Shown here piece after piece: positions 4,184-20,334 of a stretch of 22,404 bases of DNA. A program made the position numbers and the translations under genes. Each line of letters begins with the position of its first letter. Within the stretch, counting starts at the first letter, position 1. This stretch comes from a virus, in the IMG/VR virus record IMGVR_UViG_3300042896_000406, positions 1 through 22,404 of that record. One strand, 5' to 3'. The notes below the pieces were generated by a model that ran no database searches, was not told where the DNA came from, and saw only the letters and a list, made by a program, of their open reading frames with translations.

Positions 4184-5134
4184 CTACAGGCTTGAATATG
4201 CGGATTCCCATAACTTCCACCCGTCACCAATCGCCCAATTGCGCGCGTGCTCTTTAGCCGCCGCACCCATTGACTCGCGCATCTCGGTGTCATTCACGAG
4301 GTCGCGGAGTTTGCGTTCCCATTCGTGATCCTGTGACACCAAAAAGCCGGTAACCCCATCAATAACGAAATCGCTGTACGGGTCCCACTGGGAAGCAATG
4401 CACGGAATACCGAGCGCCGCATATTCCAACGTTTTGATAGCCGACTTAGACCGATTGAACTGGGATGGAATCAGCGGTGCAATGCCGATATCAAAATCGA
4501 TGCTGCGGTAGTAATCGAACAAATCTGTCGACCAAGTTGTGTGCCGACCTCGCACCTTATTAGCAATCAGATAGTTAGCGCCAATGGAATGAAAATCTAC
4601 GGCCGGGTTACGGTCTAAAAATCGTCGCAACCGTGGCGCAACCATCTCCCAATCACGCAAATGGGAATCACCACCAGCCCACCCAACCGTTACACGATCC
4701 CGGCGAGGTCGCACAAGGTCAAATAAAGCATTATCGACATGGTTGGGTAGTACGGTCACGTTGTCATTGAACTGGCGCATAACGGCCGCCAGTGGCTCGG
4801 TAGACACCGTTACAAGGTGGGCAATCGACGCCGCCGACTCAATCTCCCGCAATTGGTCATCTGTAAACGATCGTTTGGCGCGAAAGTTGCTCGGGTCGAT
4901 ACTCCACAAGTCGTCATCTGTTTCCCACACAAGTTTGTGTGTGCGCCAAGCTTTTAACCAGTGCGGCATGAACCCGGGTCCGCCGAGCCTTTGCCCCACA
5001 ATAATGGCATCGTTCGGGGCTGTACCTTGCCGAGAATATTCGACATCAAGCCCGTTAGCTTTCATCGTGTCAAATGGCAACCTAATACGGTAATAACCGC
5101 ACGCTGTACCATCTTCATACGCATAAACTTGCAC
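4184..5134 (-). CDS. Glycosyltransferase (GT4-like) inside the head gene cluster
   Basis: 316 aa, GTG start with AGGAG five bases upstream. A C-terminal Rossmann-like domain has the GT4 nucleotide-sugar signature: TVGWAGGDSHLRDWE, FDIGIAPL, then SKSAIKTLEYAALGIPCIAS, and DGVTGFLVSQDHEWERKL. The N-terminal half contains YYRIRLPFDTM and LVWETDDDLW. Such enzymes transfer sugars from nucleotide donors. Its place between the major capsid and connector genes, in the same orientation and likely the same transcript, suggests that virion proteins are the acceptor; glycosylated capsids and tails are known in some actinophages. The acceptor is inference. The hairpin at 5149-5175 lies between capsid and this gene and may lower its expression. 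Confidence 0.8.
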   Translation of the reverse strand: MQVYAYEDGTACGYYRIRLPFDTMKANGLDVEYSRQGTAPNDAIIVGQRLGGPGFMPHWLKAWRTHKLVWETDDDLWSIDPSNFRAKRSFTDDQLREIESAASIAHLVTVSTEPLAAVMRQFNDNVTVLPNHVDNALFDLVRPRRDRVTVGWAGGDSHLRDWEMVAPRLRRFLDRNPAVDFHSIGANYLIANKVRGRHTTWSTDLFDYYRSIDFDIGIAPLIPSQFNRSKSAIKTLEYAALGIPCIASQWDPYSDFVIDGVTGFLVSQDHEWERKLRDLVNDTEMRESMGAAAKEHARNWAIGDGWKLWESAYSSL

Positions 5135-15680: not shown

Positions 15681-15802
15681 TTTGTCCGCCTCAATCTCAA
15701 ATGCTGGTACAGATCCCATTCGGGCTGCGCGAAATCTGCCGGTGTGACCGATGCTAGAAATTGTGTAAACGCATAATCGGCGGCGGTCTCGATGTAGCTC
15801 AT
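15677..15802 (-). CDS. Unknown 41-aa protein coupled to both neighbours
   Basis: The reading frame MSYIETAADYAFTQFLASVT then PADFAQPEWDLYQHLRLRRT-K fills the space between the helicase-loader-like gene and the HTH gene exactly. Its ATG overlaps the upstream TGA, and its TGA overlaps the downstream ATG. The perfect four-base overlaps on both sides are strong evidence of translation. It is aromatic-rich and predicted helical. Function unknown. Confidence 0.6.
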   Translation of the reverse strand: MSYIETAADYAFTQFLASVTPADFAQPEWDLYQHLRLRRTK

Positions 15803-16212
15803 CGCACACCGTGCCAAGGATGTTCGCGCACGATGTCGCTGCCAAACCCTGCCGTGACGAGTTGCTGAGAATAAATGGCAACCTCATCACGAAACGCCAT
15901 CGGGCTTTTGTATGCCGCGCACATCGCTTCCCAATTGGTTGGTTTCGGGTGCCCCTCAATCACGACACCCGCGTCTAGCGCTTTCTGTGCCTCCGCTCGA
16001 CCTGTGCGGATTGCGTGGACGTTCCGGCGAATGTGTGCGGGAGCCAAATAATCCAAAGACTCTTGCCGGTGCATACTCACCGCCTCGATGGAATCTTGAA
16101 AATCGAGATCACCGATCGAATCAAACCATTCCGCTAACACAAGCTTATCCGCTTGCCGGTTGTCGCCTAGCTGAATCTTCGCTAGGACTCTCGCGCATTC
16201 CTCAAGGGTCAT
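15799..16212 (-). CDS. Helicase loader-like replication protein
   Basis: 137 aa. The N-terminal 65 residues follow the pattern of small phage helicase-loading proteins (G39P-like): TLEECARVLAKIQLGDNRQA, then LAEWFDSIGDLDFQDSIEAV and LDYLAPAHIRRNVHAIRTGR (helical bundle, W, then YLAPAHI). Such proteins deliver the replicative helicase to the initiator-bound origin. The gene follows directly on the replisome organizer (GCATGACC overlap), the same pairing as in SPP1-like systems. The sequence match is by eye and moderate; no helicase gene is in the window, so the host DnaB may be used. Confidence 0.5.
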   Translation of the reverse strand: MTLEECARVLAKIQLGDNRQADKLVLAEWFDSIGDLDFQDSIEAVSMHRQESLDYLAPAHIRRNVHAIRTGRAEAQKALDAGVVIEGHPKPTNWEAMCAAYKSPMAFRDEVAIYSQQLVTAGFGSDIVREHPWHGVR

Positions 16213-16973
16213 GCTTGCAAACCTTTCTGCTCATCAATCAAATCGGTGGCTAGAGTCATTGTGCGTCGTGCTCGTTGCTCGGGCGTTGGCTTGGCTTGTG
16301 TCCGGTCTGACTCGTTCATCAACCAAACTCGCCAAGTAGCAACCCAGTCGACTTTCGTCGCGTTCTTCGTTGTTGATCGCCAATAATCTACAAACTTCAG
16401 CGTCACCCTGTCAACGTCAACATTCGGTGCCGATGTCGCCGCCCATGCCCTCATTGCAGCGCTCACCATGAACTCATCAGGTATCCGAGCACCGCGTTTT
16501 AGCGGTGCCAATCTTTTGACTACATCGTTAGATGTAGTGGGATGGGATGGGATGGGATGGGGAGCGCGAACATCGCGCGAACTTCTTGCGAACTTCGCCG
16601 GAACTTCTTCCGAACTTCGCGCGAAGTTCGCGCGAACATCTTCGGAACGTGTAACTATTTTTCCCCTAATTTTTGACATCCGAGCCCGAGCATCATCACG
16701 CTTTGCGAGCACCAAATCTCGCGACGGTTGATAATCTGCCCAATCGTTGAACTGGTAACCGCCATCGACCTGATGCCACAGACCGCACTCCACAAGCGCC
16801 TGACAGGCCACTTGACCGCCCATCACCGTAACCATCTGCTCAGTGATAAACCCGTCCGTCAGTTGTTGGCACGAGTACGACAACGCGCGCACCCATAACC
16901 CCATCGCATCATTACCGGCAAGCATGACTTTAGGATGAAACGCTAGAGAATCATCTACACGACCCCACGCCAT
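16209..16973 (-). CDS. Replisome organizer / replication initiator with internal origin repeats
   Basis: 254 aa. The N-terminal winged-helix type domain (MAWGRVDDSLAFHPKVMLAG, then MGLWVRALSYSCQQLTDGFI, residues 1-85) is the signature opening of phage replisome organizers. A basic linker with three 11-residue repeats follows: SEDVRANFARS, SEEVPAKFARS and SRDVRAP (110-137). The repeats are a by-product of DNA iterons. A C-terminal domain (IPDEFMVSAAMRAWAATSAP; VDWVATWRVWLMNESDRTQA) resembles the part that contacts helicase or loader. Such proteins bind iterons in their own gene and melt the origin, as lambda O and SPP1 gp38 do. TAATG overlap with the HNH gene upstream. Confidence 0.75.
   Translation of the reverse strand: MAWGRVDDSLAFHPKVMLAGNDAMGLWVRALSYSCQQLTDGFITEQMVTVMGGQVACQALVECGLWHQVDGGYQFNDWADYQPSRDLVLAKRDDARARMSKIRGKIVTRSEDVRANFARSSEEVPAKFARSSRDVRAPHPIPSHPTTSNDVVKRLAPLKRGARIPDEFMVSAAMRAWAATSAPNVDVDRVTLKFVDYWRSTTKNATKVDWVATWRVWLMNESDRTQAKPTPEQRARRTMTLATDLIDEQKGLQA
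16519..16681. repeat. Predicted replication origin: iterons, AT-rich tract, pentanucleotide repeats and hairpin
   Basis: Within the organizer gene, eight contiguous 11-bp units lie at 16563-16650; on the minus strand they read ACGTTCCGAAG, ATGTTCGCGCG, AACTTCGCGCG, AAGTTCGGAAG, AAGTTCCGGCG, AAGTTCGCAAG, AAGTTCGCGCG, ATGTTCGCGCT. One flank (16651-16681) is AT-rich with runs AAAAATTA and AAAAATAG, a possible unwinding element. The other flank holds tandem GGGAT repeats (16540-16561), then a perfect 8-bp hairpin ACTACATC-GTTA-GATGTAGT (16519-16538). The layout matches lambdoid origins inside the initiator gene. Confidence 0.72.
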
Positions 16974-17383
16974 TACAGGCCCGCCTTTCGTCTCCGATAT
17001 GCCGCTTCAAGGTCATCTATCACCGTAAAACCTCCCTCATCATCGAACAAAACCCAACCCAACTCCATCGTGCCGTGTACGGTCGGCAACCACCGGCGCG
17101 CAGGCCAGTCGCCAGGTGCAAGCATTGTAAACCGTGCCACCGCCCACCCATCGGCGAGCGCCTCGTCTGGGTGATTGGTTTTCCATGCATGACACCCCGC
17201 ACCCAACACGATCAGGTTAGATGCGATGGTGTTGCCTTCCATGCGGTTCTGTCGGTGATCGCGTTGAGGTTGCCCACAATCACGCCTGCACCTTTGGCAC
17301 GAGTTATTGTCGCGCATCGTTACCATCTCGTAGGCGTCGCGCATCTGCCTAGCGGTCTGCTCAGGCACTTTCGGCGCGATCAC
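16973..17383 (-). CDS. HNH endonuclease-like protein (early region)
   Basis: 136 aa from the GTG at 17383, which overlaps the WhiB stop (GTGA); the frame extends to 17440 but that part lies inside WhiB. Motifs: CQRC (29-32), RDHRQN (Asp42-His43), SNLIVLGAGCHAWKTNH (Asn56, Cys64-His65, His71), then the helix DEALADGWAVARF. This is a zinc-supported HNH nuclease of the kind often encoded beside phage replication genes. The C-terminal 50 residues (RRWLPTVHGTMELGWVLFDD and DDLEAAYRRRK) are not part of the core. It could be a homing-type or replication-associated nuclease; it differs from the packaging HNH at 10611-10931. Confidence 0.78.
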   Translation of the reverse strand: MIAPKVPEQTARQMRDAYEMVTMRDNNSCQRCRRDCGQPQRDHRQNRMEGNTIASNLIVLGAGCHAWKTNHPDEALADGWAVARFTMLAPGDWPARRWLPTVHGTMELGWVLFDDEGGFTVIDDLEAAYRRRKAGL

Positions 17384-17622
17384 AGTTTCCGCCTGTTGAC
17401 TCGAATAGCTGCACGGTCTTTTGCGGTTGTTCCGCCCCAAATGCCCGGCAACGACGGGTCCTCAAGCGCATAGTTTAGGCACTCCAGGACAACCGGGCAA
17501 AGTGCGCAAATTCTTTTTGCCGGTAGCGATGAGCCTTTGAGATCGGGGAAAAAAACTTCTGTATCGGTTTGGGCACAGAGGGCATCATCCATCCATCCAA
17601 GGTAGCCGTTATCGCGGATCAT
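17380..17622 (-). CDS. WhiB-family iron-sulfur transcription regulator
   Basis: 80 aa with the complete family signature: Cys16 (DDALCAQTDTEVFFP), then AKRICALCPV with Cys39 and Cys42, and Cys48 (LECLNYAL), spacing C-x22-C-x2-C-x5-C, which binds a 4Fe-4S cluster. The G-I-W-G-G turn is at 60-64, followed by the basic tail DRAAIRVNRRKL for DNA contact. WhiB proteins occur only in actinobacteria and their phages and act with the primary sigma factor. Phage copies can alter host gene expression or superinfection. Its ATG overlaps the stop of the methyltransferase gene (ATGA). Confidence 0.95.
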   Translation of the reverse strand: MIRDNGYLGWMDDALCAQTDTEVFFPDLKGSSLPAKRICALCPVVLECLNYALEDPSLPGIWGGTTAKDRAAIRVNRRKL

Positions 17623-18176: not shown

Positions 18177-18706
18177 GCAATCACCTCCCACGCAAGCTGT
18201 GTTTCCGTAGCGACTCCGCTGCGAGCTGCGACAACATTAGCCATCCCGCCGCTGCCGGGGAAAAGGTCGGTGAAGTCATCTCCTGGCATCCAGCCGAGCA
18301 GGTCGAGCACCCATGAGTTGAACGCGGCAGGCTTCACGCCCGTTAGCCCCTTGCGCATGGTGATTGACTCCGCGAGGTGATCGCGGCCCACGTCCGCACC
18401 ATCCTTCGATGAGTCCCGACCGGGCGAGAACAGCACCGGCTCCCATGTGTACGCGATCCGCACATTCGCTTTGAACGCGGCAAACGGCTTTACCCATGCC
18501 GCCACGCGCGCGGTCGGGAACAGGGGCAGGAGGTCATGGAGATTGCCGCTCGTCATACTCAGCGCCCAACCATCAAACGTATCAAGAGTGACCGCGAGCC
18601 GTTCCCATGCAGCGATGTCGTCATACTCACGCACCGCCGCGATCTCGGTATCCGAGTACAATTTGCCGTAACCGAAATACGGGGGGTCAGCATAGGCAAG
18701 CCTCAT
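18173..18706 (-). CDS. DNA methyltransferase, catalytic motif first (beta order)
   Basis: 177 aa. Motif IV is at the extreme N-terminus: RLAYADPPYFGYGKLY (DPPY 7-10). The middle contains GWALSMTSGNLHDLLPLF, RVAAWVKPFAAFKANVR and WEPVLFSPGR. The C-terminus holds motif I, FTDLFPGSGGMANVVAA (about 145-161). This is the circularly permuted beta arrangement of amino-methyltransferases. It overlaps the next methyltransferase by four bases and shares its transcript. Phage methyltransferases of this small size commonly protect DNA from host restriction; the target sequence cannot be read from the gene. Confidence 0.85.
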   Translation of the reverse strand: MRLAYADPPYFGYGKLYSDTEIAAVREYDDIAAWERLAVTLDTFDGWALSMTSGNLHDLLPLFPTARVAAWVKPFAAFKANVRIAYTWEPVLFSPGRDSSKDGADVGRDHLAESITMRKGLTGVKPAAFNSWVLDLLGWMPGDDFTDLFPGSGGMANVVAARSGVATETQLAWEVIA

Positions 18707-19242
18707 GAGGCAGACAACTTTGCTTTGCGGGCATCCTTTAGCTTCACAAGCTCAGGCACCGACGACACACCGGCCGCCACAATTTGCTGCCATGCGTTTA
18801 GCAGTTCATCCAGACTCGTACTAGCCGACAACGACGCCACATGCGCGGCATACGACTCGTGCAGCGGTTGGACCGTAAAGGGTTCACGTTTTCCGCGCGA
18901 GGTCGTTAGGTTGACGCTGAACGCCTTAGGGATGTGGGAGAGGTGACTGATCTTGATGCCGCCCACGACATTTGGCCCGAACTTGACGGTGGCGTCACCG
19001 TACAGAGTCATCTCGCGCCCGCCATACTCTAAAGCCTCAACCCCCCACGCCGTCACGAGCACACGGCGCATTGACTTGCTTGGCTTGTACGGGCGACCCG
19101 GAAACTCGACTAGGTGAATTTCTACTGGCTGCTCTGTGCTGCCCTGTTTGACTTCGGTGATCGTGACCGTCTTAGGGCCGCCGATGTAGTCGTCGAAGTT
19201 CTGTTGGTCTGACTTTGGTTCGGTTGTCGCTGAAATGTCCAT
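18703..19242 (-). CDS. Unknown conserved partner of the exonuclease
   Basis: 179 aa from the ATG at 19242 (TAATG overlap with the exonuclease gene); a longer frame to 19356 lies inside that gene. The core contains FDDYIGGPKTVTITEVKQGS, then VEIHLVEFPGRPYKPSKSMR, RVLVTAWGVEALEYGGREMT and GGIKISHLSHIPKAFSVNLT, a beta-rich fold followed by a helical C-terminal tail (SLDELLNAWQQIVAAGV). I know similar proteins only as unassigned actinophage/prophage products. Its fixed place beside the exonuclease suggests a recombination accessory, perhaps a DNA-binding or annealing protein; that is inference from position. Confidence 0.6.
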   Translation of the reverse strand: MDISATTEPKSDQQNFDDYIGGPKTVTITEVKQGSTEQPVEIHLVEFPGRPYKPSKSMRRVLVTAWGVEALEYGGREMTLYGDATVKFGPNVVGGIKISHLSHIPKAFSVNLTTSRGKREPFTVQPLHESYAAHVASLSASTSLDELLNAWQQIVAAGVSSVPELVKLKDARKAKLSAS

Positions 19243-20093
19243 TAGAAATTTATCTCCCGCTCGTACTTTGTTTCGTGCGCAAACACTAGCCACGTCGGCG
19301 CATCCAGTGATTGAATCTCGGTCGTGTAGCCGGGCCATACACCCGACGCCGTGCACTCGGCAAAGATCGCGCGTGCAGCTTGAGCCTTAGCCCGCCCCAT
19401 GGCTAACCACATTTCTGGTAGCTCAAAGACTGCCACCTCATAAGGGGCAGATTTTTCGACCGCCACGATCATGAACCGTTCAATGAAAGCCGTCTCGGAT
19501 GCTTCGTACACGTCCATGTAATGCGCGACCTGTACGTCGTAACCCCATTTGGCTACTGACCGCTCAAAACCGTCTTTAGTGGCATCTTCGGTTGTTTTTA
19601 AGTCAAGCGCATAAACACCGTTGCGGGTTGGTTCCGAGAGTGCATCGAACCTTGCACGCGACGGCACACCGTCGACATCTGCAAACACCGACACCTCGCG
19701 CAGCTCGCACACCTCGAGCAACGGGCGCGCGGACTCGTGAGCCAGGACTGCCTCAGCTATCCCGTCAACCCGGTCAGCATCTACAGCCGACAGAATGGTG
19801 AAACCTGCCGCGCGTTGCTCTTGCTCCCACTCAACCGTTGCCGCCTTGGTGGAGGGGTTGCCGGATGGTGTCAAATGTTCGGCAGGGTAGGTGACAGTTA
19901 GCCCACCAACACCGAGCACGCGAGTGTGGACTGCATGGCCGACATCGAACGCTCGCGAGGTACGCCGGTGGGTTTGTGCGTACTGAAATTTGCGGGGTGA
20001 TCCTTTGTATTCGGGTAGCAGCATTCGCGCGCCTGTGGAGCTAAGCGCCCGGTGTGCATGGTATTCGTTTTCTTCCATGCCGTGAACAATCAT
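19242..20093 (-). CDS. PD-(D/E)XK exonuclease (RecE/Cas4-like)
   Basis: 283 aa from the ATG at 20093, which has AAAGGGG six bases upstream; the open frame to 20321 runs through other small genes. Nuclease core: FDVGHAVHTRVLG (His53), CELREVSVFADVDGV (Glu133), SRARFDALSE (Asp150), GVYALDLKTTEDATKDGFER (Asp164, Lys166 as D-x-K), and YDVQVAHYMDVYEA (Gln188, Tyr192). This is the RecE/lambda-exonuclease/YqaJ-like pattern of enzymes that resect double-stranded ends to load an annealing protein. No recognisable RecT/Erf/Beta is in the window; the next gene is the only candidate partner. Confidence 0.8.
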   Translation of the reverse strand: MIVHGMEENEYHAHRALSSTGARMLLPEYKGSPRKFQYAQTHRRTSRAFDVGHAVHTRVLGVGGLTVTYPAEHLTPSGNPSTKAATVEWEQEQRAAGFTILSAVDADRVDGIAEAVLAHESARPLLEVCELREVSVFADVDGVPSRARFDALSEPTRNGVYALDLKTTEDATKDGFERSVAKWGYDVQVAHYMDVYEASETAFIERFMIVAVEKSAPYEVAVFELPEMWLAMGRAKAQAARAIFAECTASGVWPGYTTEIQSLDAPTWLVFAHETKYEREINF

Positions 20094-20179
20094 TAGAAAC
20101 CCCTTTTGTAGAGAATAATGCCCGCCACGGTTGCGCCGATGACGCACAGGGCAAGCAGGATAACCGCTAAGCCGATCAC
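20093..20179 (-). CDS. 28-aa single-pass membrane peptide
   Basis: GTG start overlapping the previous stop (GTGA). Its sequence is MIGLAVILLALCVIGATVAG then IILYKRGF: one transmembrane helix with a basic end. The TAA overlaps the exonuclease ATG (TAATG), and the next gene's ribosome-binding site AAAGGGG lies in its last codons. It is too short to recognise by family; the tight coupling on both sides argues that it is translated. Confidence 0.5.
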   Translation of the reverse strand: MIGLAVILLALCVIGATVAGIILYKRGF

Positions 20180-20334
20180 AGGTCGCCCCGCTCGGGTCGG
20201 TTTGCTTGCCGTTTTTCCGCACGTTCAAGAAAGATCGACAGCGCGCCCAAACCGATAAGAACGACAGCGCCCGCGTGCAAGATCGGCCACGATGTCGCCA
20301 CCAACAGGAGGACGCCCACAAGGATCGCGGTCAT
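20176..20334 (-). CDS. 52-aa membrane protein
   Basis: Starts MTAILVGVLLLVATSWPILH and continues AGAVVLIGLGALSIFLERAE, then the basic tail KRQANRPERGDL. Two hydrophobic segments, or one long hairpin, with a positively charged cytoplasmic end are predicted. The ATG overlaps the stop of the 97-aa gene (ATGA), and its stop overlaps the next GTG. It is an early gene of unknown function; inner-membrane phage proteins in early operons often act in superinfection exclusion, but nothing here proves it. Confidence 0.55.
   Translation of the reverse strand: MTAILVGVLLLVATSWPILHAGAVVLIGLGALSIFLERAEKRQANRPERGDL

Follow-up and report, generated by a model that had tools for sequence, protein, structure and literature searches.

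A likely actinophage replication origin within its own initiator gene, built from phased half-sites, a C3N2 tract, and a hairpin

Origins located inside initiator genes are already known, including those of lambda (PMC7466680) and SPP1 oriL (PMC6316719). The lambda ori has four iterons in gene O, and the Stx phages have six, plus an essential AT-rich tract; O is 13 residues longer in the Stx phages owing to their additional iterons (PMC7466680). In SPP1, oriL lies in gene 38, where direct repeats are bound by G38P, and the genes for the loader G39P and the helicase G40P follow (PMC6316719). PLE RepA provides an example of evolutionary coupling: its DNA-binding domain covaries with the iterons, its C-terminal parts are shuffled, and ICP1 encodes an origin-directed nuclease, Odn (PMC8263062). 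Among mycobacteriophages, Miko, Rachaly, and Jeeves are suspected to have an origin within or just upstream of repA, although no repeats were identified (PMC7157519). For phages carrying the initiator described below, no paper reporting a mapped lytic origin was found in the open literature searched.

Here, we analyze a 22,404-b linear fragment (the window, i.e., the whole stretch of DNA examined), which makes up an entire IMG/VR virus record. We propose that positions 16489 to 16648 are likely (probability of roughly 0.8) to be a replication origin embedded in the phage's own initiator gene, with origin activity itself being inferred. The features discussed are as follows.

15799 to 16212, minus strand: the next gene, 137 aa, helicase-loader-like (blastp, E values of 2e-9 and 4e-5)
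16209 to 16973, minus strand: the initiator (replisome-organizer) gene, 254 aa (phrog_2447 profile match and tblastn relatives)
16722 to 16973, minus strand: N-terminal winged-helix-type domain, residues 1 to 84 (AlphaFold2 and Foldseek)
16638 to 16721, minus strand: long helix, residues 85 to 112, the proposed iteron-reading helix (a helix in both structure models)
16677 to 16691, minus strand: codons of residues 95 to 99 (A R A R M), the proposed specificity residues, class M99 with word GTTC (mutual information, partial correlation, and leave-one-out prediction)
16649 to 16681 (about), no strand assigned: AT-rich stretch before the iterons (sequence; A+T profile of 70 homologs)
16564 to 16648, minus strand: iteron array of seven 11-bp units and a partial eighth, half-site GTTC (sequence, autocorrelation, and family-wide spacing)
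16539 to 16562, minus strand: C3N2 tract CCCCATCCCATCCCATCCCATCCC, on the plus strand GGGAT repeats of G-quadruplex type (homolog counts and window scan)
16519 to 16538, no strand assigned: hairpin 1, perfect 8-bp stem with a 4-nt loop (homolog hairpin counts and loop class)
16489 to 16508, no strand assigned: hairpin 2, GC-rich 7-bp stem, minor and less widely shared (two hairpins in 9 of 70 homologs)

The phrog_2447 profile, named "replication initiation protein," matches the 254-aa protein over its full length (residues 1 to 239) with an E value of 2.9e-43. Membership in this family thus meets the sequence criterion, while initiator activity rests on annotation only. Relatives found by tblastn occur in 444 phage records, and every host is actinobacterial. 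An AlphaFold2 model of the N terminus (pLDDT, 95.5; pTM, 0.83) resembles a "Replisome organizer" among viral predicted structures, as evidenced by Foldseek (E value of 3.8e-7 and TM score of 0.83, with another at 6.1e-6), and also matches a phage replisome organiser N-terminal domain protein from Streptococcus phage Abc2 (E value of 5.5e-3). No significant relative of this domain was found among solved structures by sequence or fold; the match to the Rep-DNA complex 5kbj, for instance, is not significant (E value of 0.77 and TM score of 0.45). The linker at residues 113 to 160 is predicted to be disordered (pLDDT, 51 to 56), and so it would be expected to tolerate coding for DNA sites. The 137-aa product of the next gene is similar to annotated helicase loaders of Microbacterium phage Blett and Arthrobacter phage BrayBeast, these being the two blastp matches listed above. 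An initiator gene followed by a helicase loader gene meets the order criterion of the SPP1 G38P type, for which the similarity is weak but the position is supportive.

Several other genes of the window are worth recording. Close to the initiator gene, a WhiB-like transcription factor gene (17380 to 17622; Pfam E value of 9.5e-20) stands beside an HNH endonuclease gene (16973 to 17440). An Exonuclease VIII-type PDDEXK gene (19242 to 20321; DUF3799; phrog_412 E value of 3e-73) adjoins a phrog_11517 gene of unknown function (18703 to 19356), and the two are possibly a recombination pair. Also, judging from its translation only, a 316-aa open reading frame at 4184 to 5134 is glycosyltransferase-like and lies amid structural genes near a capsid-type gene.

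Read from 16648 to 16564 on the minus strand, the array is GTTCCGAAGAT GTTCGCGCGAA CTTCGCGCGAA GTTCGGAAGAA GTTCCGGCGAA GTTCGCAAGAA GTTCGCGCGAT GTTCGCGC. Autocorrelation within it reaches 0.73 to 0.78 at lags of 11, 22, 33, and 44, compared with about 0.2 at other lags, and TRF reports periods of 11, 22, and 33. The iteron word has 15 matches in the window, concentrated at the array, whereas 100 shuffles gave a mean of 6.1 and a largest count of 14. The encoded protein repeat of 11 aa, RSEDVRANFARSSEEVPAKFARSSRDVRA, spans 33 bp, or three iteron units; because a purely protein repeat would need a 33-bp period only, the 11-bp period within it is a property of the DNA. A search of the 22-kb fragment for a second iteron array found none.

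Beyond the array, the tract contains five G3 runs with 2-nt spacers, which meets the sequence criterion for a G-quadruplex-forming sequence, with folding being inferred; the window has no other G3N2x4 stretch. On the coding strand, hairpin 1 reads ACTACATC-TAAC-GATGTAGT from 16538 to 16519, and its loop on the G-rich strand is GTTA. Hairpin 2 sits 10 bp beyond hairpin 1, and the homologs with two hairpins in succession (9 of 70) compare with 0.35 in the null. A search for terminator-like patterns returned hairpin 2 on the plus strand only, which is no more than shuffles give, and an Rfam search of 16300 to 16900 at an E value of 1 detected no known RNA element.

Much of this layout had been claimed in an initial annotation made from the sequence alone. 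Its eight contiguous 11-bp iterons in the initiator gene held, as seven full units and one partial unit, as did its 11-residue protein repeat every 33 bp (three units). Its GGGAT repeats and perfect 8-bp hairpin held as well, and both proved to be core conserved parts rather than bystanders. The AT-rich tract that it noted by the iterons is present in the window but is not conserved among homologs, and its view that uninterrupted 11-bp spacing is unusual failed, with a spacing of 11 to 12 bp being typical of the family. The A+T profile of 70 homologs contains no extended AT-rich zone, only the hairpin being A+T enriched, and does not support the AT-rich tract as a conserved unwinding element. 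Because the stretch at 16649 to 16681 is not conserved in the family, it is probably nonessential.

Family-wide comparisons drew on the homolog L004 (47% identical), eight annotated phages, and 150 loci from IMG/VR and actinobacterial prophages. The resulting set consists of 144 nonidentical genes in 90 clusters below 60% identity, and these clusters remain related to each other. Null expectations came from synonymous shuffles within each gene, which preserve the protein and codon use but not neighboring-base effects. The comparison shows a conserved DNA module composed of half-sites spaced 11 to 12 bp, the C3N2 tract with which they are in fixed register, and a hairpin. For example, L004 has units, a (CCCAT)n tract, and a hairpin in the same order as in the window, and its stem, CTCAACACC-TAAA-GGTGTTGAG, is unlike the window's hairpin in sequence but alike in structure. 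Arthrobacter phages Zucker and Bauer and Gordonia phage Apricot also carry the module.

Defined as at least four C3 runs with 1- to 3-nt spacers, the tract occurs in 70 of the 90 clusters, compared with a mean of 16 and a largest value of 24 in 100 synonymous nulls; with strict 2-nt spacers, the figures are 57 clusters and 6.6, respectively. Flanking DNA totaling 403 kb holds six C3N2-type tracts and zero G-tracts. Its start can fall in any codon phase (27/22/21), and across 70 genes it encodes 64 different peptides (PHPIPSHP, PDPTRPDPTRP, PVPVPVP, and others); what is conserved is therefore the DNA. Spacers are 2 nt long in 271 of 301 cases, with 1-nt and 3-nt spacers also occurring, and their sequence varies (GA, GT, AT, GG, TT, TA, and AA). 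When 36 whole records were scanned for exact C3N2x4, 27 had a match; these stretches are confined to one strand and form a single cluster in 26 of the 27 matching records. For the sampled loci, that cluster is the initiator gene, and scattered matches were seen in one record only (G011). Three-run tracts are found in 10 of 90 clusters, compared with 20 in the null, and another 10 have no tract. Rare three-run tracts together with greatly enriched tracts of four or more runs fit a four-run rule, without proving a G-quadruplex.

Iterons required a different statistic. Copy numbers of the best 7-mer separated poorly from the synonymous null (4.7 versus 4.0), and therefore, spacing statistics were used. 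Self-similarity upstream of the tract peaks at a lag of 11 (z score of 8.7 versus the synonymous null) and again at 23, and the distances separating copies of the best word are concentrated at 11 (60 cases) and 12 (46 cases). The words themselves vary among phages (GTTCGNNCGAAC, GTTACGNNGTAAC-like, GTCACG, GTCCC, GATCGGG, ATGGCAAA, and GAAGCAAA). Among 51 genes of the four GTNN classes, 31 have their last half-site, whatever its sequence, 9 to 11 bp ahead of the tract. A distant homolog on a Betaproteobacteria MAG contig (L160, 2501 to 3427) has repeated GTCGCGCGAC-like words, after which (GGACC)n repeats take the place of C3N2.

A perfect hairpin of at least 6 bp within 55 bp after the tract is present in 45 of 70 tract genes, compared with 8.8 (largest, 17) in the synonymous null and with 11 of 207 for such hairpins elsewhere in the genes; no hairpin of this strict type was recognized in the remaining 25. 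Among 40 hairpins with short loops (3 to 4 nt), 38 close with C-G, and 34 carry GNNA (20), TTTA (9), or GNA (5) loops on the G-rich strand, whereas a single one carries such a loop when read on the opposite strand. For comparable hairpins in the flanks, the two counts are 6 of 95 and 4 of 95. The same 40 hairpins have 32 distinct inner stems (inner 6-mers), and base pairing is kept. The stability of GNA-family DNA triloops with a C-G closing pair is documented (PMC5815330). GNNA and TTTA DNA tetraloops are likewise stable. By inference, it is the G-rich strand, when single, that would adopt the hairpin, which may be a priming or protein-landing structure. DNA folding parameters give the hairpin on the G-rich strand an advantage of only 0 to 0.4 kcal/mol over the other strand; energies thus barely separate the strands, and the strand argument therefore rests on loop statistics. 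In several Gordonia/mycobacterial-type members (L008, L011, L060, L066, L076, L128, L137, and L142), a shared TAGTGGTTAC-like motif followed by GGGGG runs replaces the hairpin just after the C3N2 tract, and these G-runs could possibly pair with the C tract.

Constraint on the module was measured at four-fold degenerate sites with an unchanged amino acid in 148 homolog pairs. Such sites differ in 33% of cases in the iterons, 29% in the tract, and 42% in the hairpin, compared with 56% before and 58% after the module. Conversely, amino acids differ at 53% of iteron-coded positions, compared with 35% in the N-terminal part. The pairs are not independent, and so the four-fold-site figures are reported as effect sizes without significance tests. 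By this comparison, the module is constrained as DNA and not as protein.

Iteron similarity tracks the N-terminal domain of the initiator (0 of 300 permutations reach the observed value) but not the C-terminal domain (135 of 300), and C-terminal domains have been exchanged among relatives, relative to N-terminal domains and iterons. Adjacency alone could account for the N-terminal relationship. At higher resolution, only columns 95, 96, 98, and 99 of the N-terminal columns exceed a z score of 5 for mutual information with iteron class (14.2 at residue 99, 12.1 at 95, and 10.6 at 98). Word classes in this test were set partly by eye; the partial correlations and densities that follow are independent of them. 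When identity over residues 1 to 84 is accounted for and only the DNA past codon 104 enters the comparison, the partial correlations with iterons are 0.45 (residue 99), 0.25 (98), and 0.23 (95), each with 0 of 500 permutations, compared with a mean of 0.004 (standard deviation, 0.049) for residues 1 to 84.

Half-site densities, for which genes were grouped by residues alone, reveal the words concerned. Per 100 bp, M99 genes have 6.9 GTTC, E95-K99 genes have 6.5 GTCC, A/S95-Q99 genes have 5.7 GTCA, V99 and N95-Q99 genes have 5.2 to 6.0 GTTA, and N98-H99 genes have 3.3 GATC. For each of the four GTNN words, all groups other than those named are lower, at 2.8 at most and mostly below 1.8. Leave-one-out prediction from residues 95, 98, and 99 gives the right half-site in 44 of 57 genes, compared with 16 of 57 when the whole winged helix supplies the nearest neighbor and 9.5 with shuffled labels; with neighbors above 45% identity excluded, the three residues still give 39 of 57, compared with 10. 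The covariation of these residues with the half-site is thus shown by comparison, whereas DNA binding itself is inferred. In the predicted helix, one turn separates residues 95 and 99, and the window's own initiator (A95, R98, and M99) and its GTTC iterons agree with the code. An artifact of iterons running through codons 95 to 99 was considered and rejected, as V99 and N95-Q99 genes lack their own word there; the first cognate half-site usually lies 15 to 60 bp downstream of those codons. Support is weakest for the Q99 group because 5 of its 8 genes have GTCA inside these codons, via Arg-Gln codons.

We favor the origin reading because of the conserved tract, the codon-phase spread, the four-fold constraint, the spacing and register, the hairpin, the residue code, and the neighboring loader gene. 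The best-supported working mode, by analogy and without an experiment, is that of lambda and SPP1, in which the origin is bound by its own gene's product on one DNA face. In this view, the N-terminal winged helix of the initiator would read GTTC half-sites via the following long helix, with residues 95, 98, and 99 facing the DNA, and half-sites every 11 bp would align protomers along one face. The array would end a fixed 9 to 11 bp ahead of the C3N2/G3N2 tract and then the hairpin. Upon opening, the G-rich strand may be kept open by a G-quadruplex-type fold and the stable-loop hairpin, leaving the C-rich strand free for the helicase loader encoded by the next gene and a DnaB-type helicase. All of these steps are inferred: that the strands open at the tract, that a G-quadruplex forms, which strand is loaded, and what the hairpin does.

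Some observations weaken this reading. There is no experiment, and GC skew across the 22-kb window, a fragment with most genes on one strand, has no switch at 16.5 kb. Also, no solved structure is significantly related, and 25 of 70 tract genes lack the strict hairpin. The G-quadruplex step is weakened because the tract of 10 of 90 clusters has only three C-runs, fewer than a canonical intramolecular G-quadruplex requires. Returning to the initial annotation, its claim that the iterons serve as the origin for the initiator encoded around them is supported by comparison, with replication activity being inferred, and its suggestion that the linker is shaped by the DNA sites is supported by four-fold sites that are constrained while linker amino acids drift. 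Of the checks that it had proposed, a comparison of homologs for an 11-bp period kept while the linker drifts came out in favor, and the GC-skew analysis found no switch in the window. Its label "lambdoid-type" holds as an analogy only, given that no lambda O family was matched and that an AT-rich unwinding tract is not conserved.

Four alternatives deserve consideration. The one that survives best keeps the module origin linked and takes the C3N2 tract for a phased 5-bp protein site, not a G-quadruplex, with the initiator or the helicase loader as candidate binder of single- or double-stranded DNA. In its favor, the 2-nt spacers (271 of 301) are more regular than a G-quadruplex needs, and 10 clusters have three runs only. 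Against it, three-run tracts are depleted (10 versus 20 in the null) and tracts of four or more runs are enriched (70 versus 16), as a four-run rule expects; moreover, spacer sequences vary, and 3-nt and 1-nt spacers occur. On balance, we lean slightly against the phased site.

A second alternative, which we consider unlikely, is that the array binds the initiator as an operator for autoregulation or as a partition centromere and that replication starts elsewhere. Centromere-type sites also carry short direct repeats spaced by one turn, as exemplified by the eight 8-bp direct repeats of RedRock-type parS (PMC7157519), and binding alone would yield the same covariation of residues and half-sites. 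Nevertheless, the array is mid-gene, which is no promoter position for an operator, and no ParA-type partner gene was seen next to it among open reading frames and profile matches. A fixed-register C3N2 tract and hairpin would be unexpected at an operator, and both readings must contend with a protein that belongs to initiator families and a neighboring gene similar to helicase loaders.

Third, and very unlikely, the stretch could be a recombination joint, i.e., short conserved DNA that enables exchange of C-terminal domains. Such domains have indeed been exchanged relative to N-terminal domains and iterons; however, the stems are nearly all different (32 distinct inner 6-mers of 40), so there is no shared homology, and the half-site follows the initiator's residues. 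Finally, a protein-level repeat only, meaning a low-complexity linker expanded by slippage without DNA function, would suit the predicted disorder of the linker (pLDDT, 51 to 56), and such linkers often hold simple repeats, but this reading is all but excluded by the synonymous nulls, the codon-phase spread, and the four-fold constraint despite amino acid drift and is also contradicted by the strand-specific hairpin loops and the residue-iteron code.

The origin reading can be extended to a bolder, joint claim, which we offer tentatively and would not yet back over its negation. Actinophages would possess an origin class without an AT-rich unwinding element, in which an initiator with a base-reading, code-obeying helix assembles on one-turn-spaced intragenic sites and opens a GC-rich G-quadruplex/hairpin element; the G-rich strand of this element would fold back on itself, and DNA structure, not ease of melting, would hold the origin open. 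Should the G-rich tract be what does the opening, it would offer a GC-rich counterpart to AT-rich unwinding elements. More broadly, the gene is labeled "hypothetical," "HTH," or "replication initiation" in hundreds of actinophage genomes, and a whole phage group now gains a testable origin location, anatomy, and binding code. That three residues predict a four-base half-site makes this one of the few natural examples in which DNA recognition can be read from sequence. We found no report of the module, the tract, or the residue code in the open literature searched, which mostly excluded subscription papers, and so an earlier description is possible.

How does this locus compare with known systems? 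The RepA proteins of Miko, Rachaly, and Jeeves are also actinophage initiators with an origin suspected in or just ahead of their gene, although kinship to the phrog_2447 initiator is not established. Phage replisome organizers share the predicted winged-helix N-terminal fold, and repeat binding and helicase loading are inferred to be shared too, with the covariation supporting binding. Unlike them, the actinophage branch has a long basic helix with three word-tracking positions, described here; no report of it was found in the literature searched.

As in SPP1 oriL, repeats lie within the initiator gene, and the window's next gene is similar to annotated loaders. SPP1 origins, however, rely on an AT-rich element for unwinding, and oriR is a further origin; the 22-kb fragment yielded no second array, and the element neighboring the window's array is GC-rich. 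The lambda ori and O protein share mid-gene iterons, binding by the N-terminal domain of the gene's own product (predicted here), and an iteron-encoded linker. In contrast to lambda, the actinophage module has short half-sites every 11 to 12 bp and no conserved AT-rich tract, in whose place stand the C3N2/G3N2 tract and the hairpin. The lambda criterion of iterons within the initiator gene is met, but descent from a lambdoid origin is not shown: the initiator has no lambda O family match (Pfam at an E value cutoff of 0.01) and no significant PDB fold match.

The likeness to PLE RepA and ICP1 Odn lies in an initiator N-terminal domain that covaries with its iterons, in the exchange of C-terminal parts, and in chimeras of initiator domain and HNH nuclease among the homologs. 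Fusions of the N-terminal domain to an HNH endonuclease are seen in L101 (2501 to 2953), L148 (2501 to 2986), L152 (2501 to 3448), L131 (2501 to 3469), and L075 (641 to 1222), with Pfam HNH matches of up to 3.6e-12 and L075 below the cutoff. Most lack the C3N2 tract; L131 has the HNH insert, yet the tract is present. HNH proteins of Brevibacterium phages AGM13 and AGM16 match the same fold as the initiator's N-terminal model. By analogy, the fusions may be origin-directed nucleases of the Odn kind (PMC8263062), with cutting being inferred, and they hint at origin-cutting competitors of these phages that could possibly drive turnover of iteron words. The iterons themselves differ: those of PLE are about 30 bp, semipalindromic, three in number, and intergenic, whereas those of the actinophage module are short, many, and intragenic.
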